From Crocinitomicaceae bacterium (GTDB lineage: Bacteria; Bacteroidota; Bacteroidia; Flavobacteriales_D; Crocinitomicaceae), in contig JABSPC010000252.1 in assembly GCA_013215515.1 (NCBI GenBank), forward strand, positions 1 to 13,124: a stretch of DNA of 13,124 nucleotides. Reading direction: 5' to 3'. Positions 4,935 through 5,780 of this stretch are shown here, piece by piece. Positions within the stretch are counted from its first letter, which is position 1, and each line of letters opens with the position of its first letter. The translations under genes and the position numbers were made by a program. The notes beneath the pieces were generated by a model. The model did not search any database and was not told where the DNA came from. It saw only the letters and a list, made by a program, of their open reading frames with translations.

Positions 4935-5780
4935 ATGGGTTGGTTTAAAAGAGATAAAGAAGGAATAACAACTTCGACAAAAGAGAAGAGAGAGACACCT
5001 GAAGGTCTTTGGGAGAAATGTTCTAATTGTAAAACAATATTCTCATCTGATGACTTGGAAAAGAATTTTTATGTGTGTGATCGTTGCAATGACCACGAAA
5101 GAATTGGTTCTAAAGAATACTTCAAGGTTTTGTTCGATGATGGTAAATACAAAGAATTGGACGCCAAATTAAAAGCAGGTGATCCACTTAAGTTTGAGGA
5201 CACAAAAAAGTACGTTGACCGTGTTAAAGCTTCACAGAAGAAAACAGGATTGGTAGATGCGATTCGTACAGGAAAAGGAAAGATTGATGGAGAAGATATT
5301 GTAATTGCTGCGATGGACTTTGCGTTTATTGGAGGTTCAATGGGGTCTGTAATGGGAGAGAAGATTGCAAGAGCAATTGATCTTGCTATTAAATCCAAAT
5401 GCCCGTTCATGATTATCTCGAAATCAGGTGGAGCTAGAATGATGGAAGCTGGATTGTCACTTATGCAAATGGCAAAAGTTTCTTGAAAACTAGGACAACT
5501 TTCTGAAGCGAAGTTACCGTACATCTCATTTTTAACTGATCCTACAACTGGTGGAGTTACTGCTTCTTTTGCAATGTTAGGAGATATCAATATTGCAGAG
5601 CCAGATGCGTTAATCGCATTCGCTGGACCGCGTGTTGTAAGAGAAACGATAGGAAGAGACCTTCCTGATGGATTCCAAAAAACGGAATTTGTAATGGAAC
5701 ACGGTTTCTTAGATTATATTGTTGATCGAAAAGACTTGAGAGAGACGTTGGCGTTGAGCTTGAAACTGTTTAGATCATAG
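4935..5780 (+). CDS. accD: Acetyl-CoA carboxylase carboxyltransferase subunit beta, interrupted by an in-frame TGA at codon 184
   Basis: AccD is the zinc-finger half of the carboxyltransferase that moves CO2 from carboxybiotin to acetyl-CoA, giving malonyl-CoA for fatty acid synthesis; it works as an AccA2-AccD2 tetramer. Residues 29-51 form the four-cysteine zinc ribbon (C29, C32, C48, C51), followed by the crotonase-fold domain with SKSGGARMMEAG and, after the stop, TDPTTGGVTASFAMLGDINI. The whole frame is 281 residues plus stop, the normal length. At 5484-5486 a TGA stands where AccD proteins usually have Ala (motif MAKTSAKL; here MAKVS-stop-KLGQLSEAKLPY). Both sides are in the same frame and well conserved, so this is a nonsense change without frameshift. 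The first in-frame ATG after it (5574) lies beyond the GG of the oxyanion region, so a split two-chain enzyme is unlikely. As written, only 183 residues would be made. Confidence 0.93.
5484..5486 (+). other. In-frame TGA stop inside accD
   Basis: The codon series around it reads GCA AAA GTT TCT TGA AAA CTA GGA, that is A K V S stop K L G. A single base change could give TGA from GGA (Gly), TCA (Ser) or CGA; the usual Ala codon GCA would need two changes. The same window uses TGA as a true stop (8634-8636, end of the TRIC gene), which argues against a changed genetic code. Confidence 0.9.

Follow-up and report, generated by a model that had tools for sequence, protein, structure and literature searches.

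AccD, which cells need for fatty acid synthesis, is required in nearly all bacteria. In E. coli, accD is called essential, and in the accessible part of PMC5405962 a laboratory strain is described in which residue 176 of accD has gone from CAG to TAG and which is alive by means of an amber suppressor that inserts Ser. By analogy with this precedent, accD can tolerate a nonsense codon in this region when the cell has a suppressor tRNA. UGA reading is described, in the accessible part of PMC13092985, for tRNA-Trp(CCA) with an anticodon stem of only four base pairs, where a G43U variant (with the same C.U pair as in the genome discussed here) was shown to mediate UGA readthrough, and where such tRNAs were also found in genomes with the standard code. 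A third system is the UGA-to-Gly code of Absconditabacteria and Gracilibacteria, as presented in the accessible part of PMC8629427.

The window, i.e., the whole stretch of 13,124 nucleotides that was analysed, makes up the whole of C171, one contig in the draft genome G000 of an uncultured bacterium. Its accD frame at 4935-5780 on the forward strand translates to 183 residues, a TGA at codon 184 (5484-5486), 97 further residues and a TAG at 5778-5780, which makes 281 codons when the stop is counted as a position. The in-frame TGA inside accD is a real feature of the assembled sequence, and both the translation and the alignments bear out the earlier note, in which the AccD frame was described as continuous from 4935 to 5780 and broken only by this TGA. 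The features of the region are the following:

3837-4910, forward strand: fba, class II fructose-bisphosphate aldolase, intact, with no unique residue at genus-invariant sites
4935-5483, forward strand: first part of accD, 183 codons, with the Zn ribbon and the start of the carboxyltransferase domain
5484-5486, forward strand: in-frame TGA, codon 184, which is GGN (Gly) in 24 of 24 genus relatives examined
5487-5780, forward strand: remainder of accD, 97 codons plus TAG, which bears the marks of purifying selection and includes TTGG at codons 204-207
5574-5780, forward strand: restart ORF of 68 aa beginning with ATG, the sole in-frame restart ORF of at least 40 aa after the stop
5859-5916, forward strand: S15-Flavobacteria ribosomal leader RNA (RF03161, 55.6 bits, cut-off 46.5), directly 5' of rpsO
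5914-6183, forward strand: presumably rpsO (S15), intact, a name consistent with the RF03161 leader
6332-8476, forward strand: an intact ORF which, from its sequence, we take to be pnp, polynucleotide phosphorylase

Towards its ends the window also carries a Tle1-like phospholipase domain (PF09994; 12220-13122, forward strand) and a type I polyketide synthase-like fragment, named from its sequence (1-2076, reverse strand), both of which run off the contig end.

The first part of accD matches PF01039 above the cut-off and PF17848 slightly under it. Compared with the AccD family (TIGR00515; E. coli 2f9y_B), the window gene is equal in length to and collinear with the nearest intact copy, that of the draft G011: both flanks of the stop align with it over 281 residues at 95% identity, and the G011 protein aligns with 2f9y_B across residues 1-275. 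What differs is the stop at codon 184, and the 183-residue piece scores 216.1 bits, under the TIGR00515 cut-off of 317.45, whereas the intact G011 copy scores 377.8 bits. In the alignment of G011 with 2f9y_B, the counterpart of codon 184 comes six residues after E. coli residue 176, and so the nonsense codon of the window falls in the same region of accD as that of the E. coli Q176amber strain (as described in the accessible part of PMC5405962); unlike that strain, with its known amber suppressor, the codon here is TGA, and a suppressor tRNA was not found in the draft.

The draft has 3,474,652 bases in 796 contigs, is 79.45% complete and shows 3.02% contamination. The organism is probably a member of Crocinitomicaceae, as a search with the nearest intact AccD led mostly to named relatives from Crocinitomicaceae and elsewhere in Flavobacteriales, the best of them matching at 88-89%; one database source assigns the closest full-length protein to Salibacteraceae.

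With the stop, codons 184-281 are lost, among them the TTGG at codons 204-207, whose counterpart in the alignment to E. coli AccD is the GG pair that presumably forms the oxyanion hole. The restart ORF at 5574 lacks codons 184-213, GG pair included. Given the loss of codons 184-281 and a restart without the GG pair, the stopped product should be inactive. A split protein assembled from two pieces was considered and rejected, since the only listed in-frame restart (5574) would leave out codons 184-213, and the GG pair with them, so that the two pieces should not rebuild the domain. In database searches, where clustering at 90% can hide copies, none of the 120 listed among 1594 matches to the 183-residue piece was 183 aa long, and none of the 120 listed among 1907 matches to the 68-residue piece was at 100%; the closest listed match to the latter (P0131, 99%) has other sequence at its start and leaves codon 184 uncovered.

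All 39 other genomes in the first search of relatives had an AccD match. The same-genus accD copies were open in 24 of 24 cases, with codon 184 as GGN (Gly) in every one and as GGA in the nearest, G011 (95% identity). Outside the genus the residue is Ala in all nine copies from the order, and among 80 named genomes it is Ala in 46, Gly in 27 and Val in 7. Across all 113 aligned genome copies (at least five genomes being counted twice) residue 184 is thus Gly, Ala or Val. Of 250 database proteins 178 cover the site, and these have Gly or Ala there, apart from a single Cys; Trp is absent from both collections. The earlier note named Ala as the usual residue, which holds in other families of the order and does not in the genus, and it placed this residue two changes from TGA. 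As the nearest relative's GGA is one base from TGA, the two-change argument fails. The alignment of accD across nearest relatives, which the same note proposed as a check, returned a sense codon (Gly) in all 24 genus copies.

In a wider draw from the order, 141 of 150 genomes (G000 included) matched AccD, a few of them only in part (e.g., G181, G150, G084 and G108), while G086, given as 99% complete, had no match at E 1e-35. An accD stop was flagged in five of the 141, and only in G000 does it lie mid-gene; the other four are the natural C-terminal end. One of these four, G037, is also frameshifted, and it was the only broken accD among the 15 non-genus relatives of the first search, with matches in three frames (L214, G037:C1:422800-423800) in a 5-contig, 97% complete genome, perhaps owing to indel errors. 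Since G000 stands alone among 141 order genomes with an AccD match, its mid-gene stop is more than chance.

Selection on the gene was compared on the two sides of the stop. Against G011, the upstream codons gave dN 0.028, dS 0.685 and omega 0.041, and the downstream codons dN 0.024, dS 0.756 and omega 0.031. After the stop, 5.2 nonsynonymous changes were seen (both branches), against about 85 expected if the G000 branch had been wholly unconstrained. A rough calculation, in which G000 takes half of the divergence to G011, bounds the age of the stop at about 13% of the G000 branch. Since constraint after the stop equals that before it, the stop is either an error or young.

We infer that an error is the most likely explanation, with a very recent nonsense allele next; the earlier note, which listed error, true nonsense mutation and readthrough, had the right options. 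In the mechanism that we favor, the lineage would carry an ordinary, working accD, and the TGA would differ by a single base from the nearest relative's GGA owing to a sequencing or assembly error in the contig consensus of this fragmented draft. A single-base consensus error is the best explanation and, in our judgement, somewhat more probable than all else together, with the wrong base itself reached by elimination and prior expectation. It agrees with the TGA being one base from the nearest relative's codon, with the low omega and few nonsynonymous changes downstream, with a mid-gene stop in only one of 141 order genomes with accD, and with a source that is a draft of 796 contigs, 79% complete and 3% contaminated.

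The same contig offers a further, unproven, sign of error. The ORF at 11192-11974 (forward strand), lipoprotein-like by eye, lies in three pieces over two frames, as if split by two frame changes, and its middle piece had no relative among 33 other genus genomes. At genus-invariant sites, the residues unique to the window number 3 of 281 in accD (H53D, the stop and S250T), 0 of 357 in fba, 1 of 89 in rpsO and 1 of 714 in pnp (Fisher p for the accD excess 0.17 without the stop and 0.054 with it). This is a weak hint that accD may be a bad stretch of sequence, and relaxed constraint fits equally.

Against an error speaks the fact that the draft, where sampled, shows no general damage. Long-ORF coverage over 20 random contigs (88,716 bases) is at least that of same-length G011 pieces. 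In 18 gene alignments between G000 and G011 a stop occurs in accD only, and the other 17 of 17 genes are stop-free and in one piece each, several of these alignments being partial, mostly at contig ends. Four of the 18 lie on a random contig and the rest on the window and the contigs matching the accA region; the comparison kept matches of at least 60% identity, and two antisense shadow frames are excluded from the count. A search for ABC domains gave 24 in G000, and the 21 of them that were listed contain no stop. A generally error-ridden draft is thus a reading that the sampled contigs, gene alignments and ABC domains do not support.

Also in line with a consensus error, no second accD was found in the contigs of the 79% complete draft, which has two larger carboxyltransferase genes, on C156 and on C660 (the latter cut by the contig end), that we take to be PccB-type and MccB-like. 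For both, the family match is to the methylmalonyl-CoA decarboxylase subunit, at a score short of the cut-off. PF01039 matches occur in 26 of 26 genus genomes (G000 included), with exactly four in 21 of them and three in G000, where accA is the one lacking, and the larger genes are also carried by genus relatives with intact accD. The non-accD carboxyltransferase set of G000 looks normal for the genus, which again favors an error. The backup enzymes suggested in the earlier note were therefore found only in part: a second accD was not found, and the two larger carboxyltransferases, although present, are the ordinary genus set beside an intact accD.

A true and very recent nonsense mutation, i.e., a rare or dying allele of the sampled population caught by a low-coverage consensus, is in our view a possibility with a minor share of the probability. 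Such an allele would also need only one base change from the nearest relative's codon, the constraint kept until now fits a young stop, and the sampled genes are otherwise clean. H53D and S250T, also unique at genus-invariant sites, point the same way, but other genus genomes likewise have from 0 to 7 unique residues at such accD sites. A further difficulty is that accD is essential in E. coli (as stated in the accessible part of PMC5405962) and that a second copy was not found in the draft, and a fixed allele would need rescue.

A real TGA that is read through is, in our view, unlikely. In its favor, the tRNA-Trp(CCA) of G000 (L215, G000:C111:2747-2820) has a C27.U43 mismatch and hence a four-pair anticodon stem, and keeps A9 and G24. 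With an unpaired 27:43, A9, G24 and a CCA anticodon, it has the features by which the leaky four-pair-stem tRNA is defined in the accessible part of PMC13092985, where such a tRNA is reported to read UGA. The amber suppression at residue 176 of E. coli accD (PMC5405962, accessible part) is a second point for it. Unlike the tRNA-Trp system of PMC13092985, as far as its accessible part describes it, UGA is still a stop here, the examined accD genes of relatives with the same tRNA are stop-free, and Trp is unseen at residue 184. The tRNA contig (C111) is moreover linked to the window by binning only.

Comparison of tRNA-Trp within the genus also weighs against readthrough. Among 31 copies (30 search loci and G011 added by hand; three from outside the genus), the 27:43 pair is G:U in 21 and C:U in 7, with C:A, G:A and C:G found once each. 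In this comparison at least six genomes of the genus lack a full-length match, and second full-length matches in G001 and G013 were left out. The tRNA-Trp(CCA) of the genus is thus mostly G27.U43, with a four-pair stem from C27.U43 or C27.A43 in 8 of the 31 copies (L215, L216-L244, L165). The C:G of G011 is a poor comparison, as the tuf-nusG contig that carries it is an outlier to the genus. This contig (L165, G011:C5) has tuf at 80% and nusG at 63% to G000 and is possibly misplaced in the bin. A mismatch unique to G000 was rejected, since six genus relatives share the C:U pair, and accD is intact in all five of these that were examined. Being shared by relatives with intact accD, C27.U43 is, as judged from these genomes, a lineage trait and not a match to the accD stop.

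The decoding apparatus gives a mixed picture. One release-factor gene was found in G000, at a contig start and closest to RF1, and RF2 was not found in the 79% complete draft, which could favor readthrough. However, 9 of the 54 long ORFs sampled from G000 terminate in TGA, and the lack of RF2 is therefore probably no more than a gap in the draft; a UGA-to-Trp reassignment would leave UGA unused as a stop. The tRNAs of G000 comprise 20 Rfam matches, of which 19 genes were confirmed by ARAGORN (150 of 218 candidates scored), and the set is incomplete, as several amino acids are without any tRNA. The tRNA with a UCA anticodon that the earlier note proposed to look for is not among the 19 confirmed in this incomplete set, a partial answer to that check. 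The 80 nt from the TGA hold no stimulating or SECIS-like hairpin (z +1.44, with 190 of 200 shuffles folding at least as well). As in the UGA-to-Gly code (PMC8629427, accessible part), UGA stands here where genus relatives have Gly; what differs is that one codon in the sample is affected, that UGA is a normal stop and that a tRNA-Gly with UCA anticodon was not seen. Many in-frame UGA at conserved Gly, which that code would produce, did not appear in the sample of 18 alignments and 21 ABC domains.

Readthrough by the four-pair-stem tRNA-Trp is, by analogy, possible but weakly supported, because residue 184 is small in the aligned relatives and the tRNA is shared with intact-accD genomes. The specific reading in which this C27.U43 tRNA-Trp would leak through UGA enough to tolerate an in-frame UGA in essential accD, so that UGA capture in this standard-code lineage would be under way but still early and ambiguous, seems to us very unlikely.

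It is highly improbable that acetyl-CoA carboxylase is being lost, with accD dead, accA gone and a different acyl-CoA carboxylase or the import of fatty acids taking over their function. The loss would agree with accA not being found in G000, where PF03255 matches only the two larger carboxyltransferase genes. However, the accA of G011 sits between stretches that match the G000 contigs C86 and C24, of which C86 ends inside the gene before accA and C24 ends about 550 bases beyond the last match; the position of accA thus coincides with broken assembly, and its absence fits an assembly gap, with deletion also possible. The two larger carboxyltransferases are carried by relatives with intact accD as well, and the constraint on accD is not relaxed.

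Selenocysteine or other programmed recoding, to which an in-frame UGA between conserved halves might point, can practically be dismissed, since the 80 nt from the TGA fold worse than shuffles, no tRNA-Sec match exceeded the 47-bit cut-off in the incomplete draft (four weaker matches are other tRNAs) and the genus relatives have Gly.

If the base is wrong, as the preferred explanation of a consensus error would have it, the case is a further caution on inferring gene loss from fragmented draft assemblies. If the TGA is real and translated, accD would be a natural example of an essential gene that relies on leaky decoding of UGA in a bacterium with the standard code, and may represent an early step of stop-codon reassignment.
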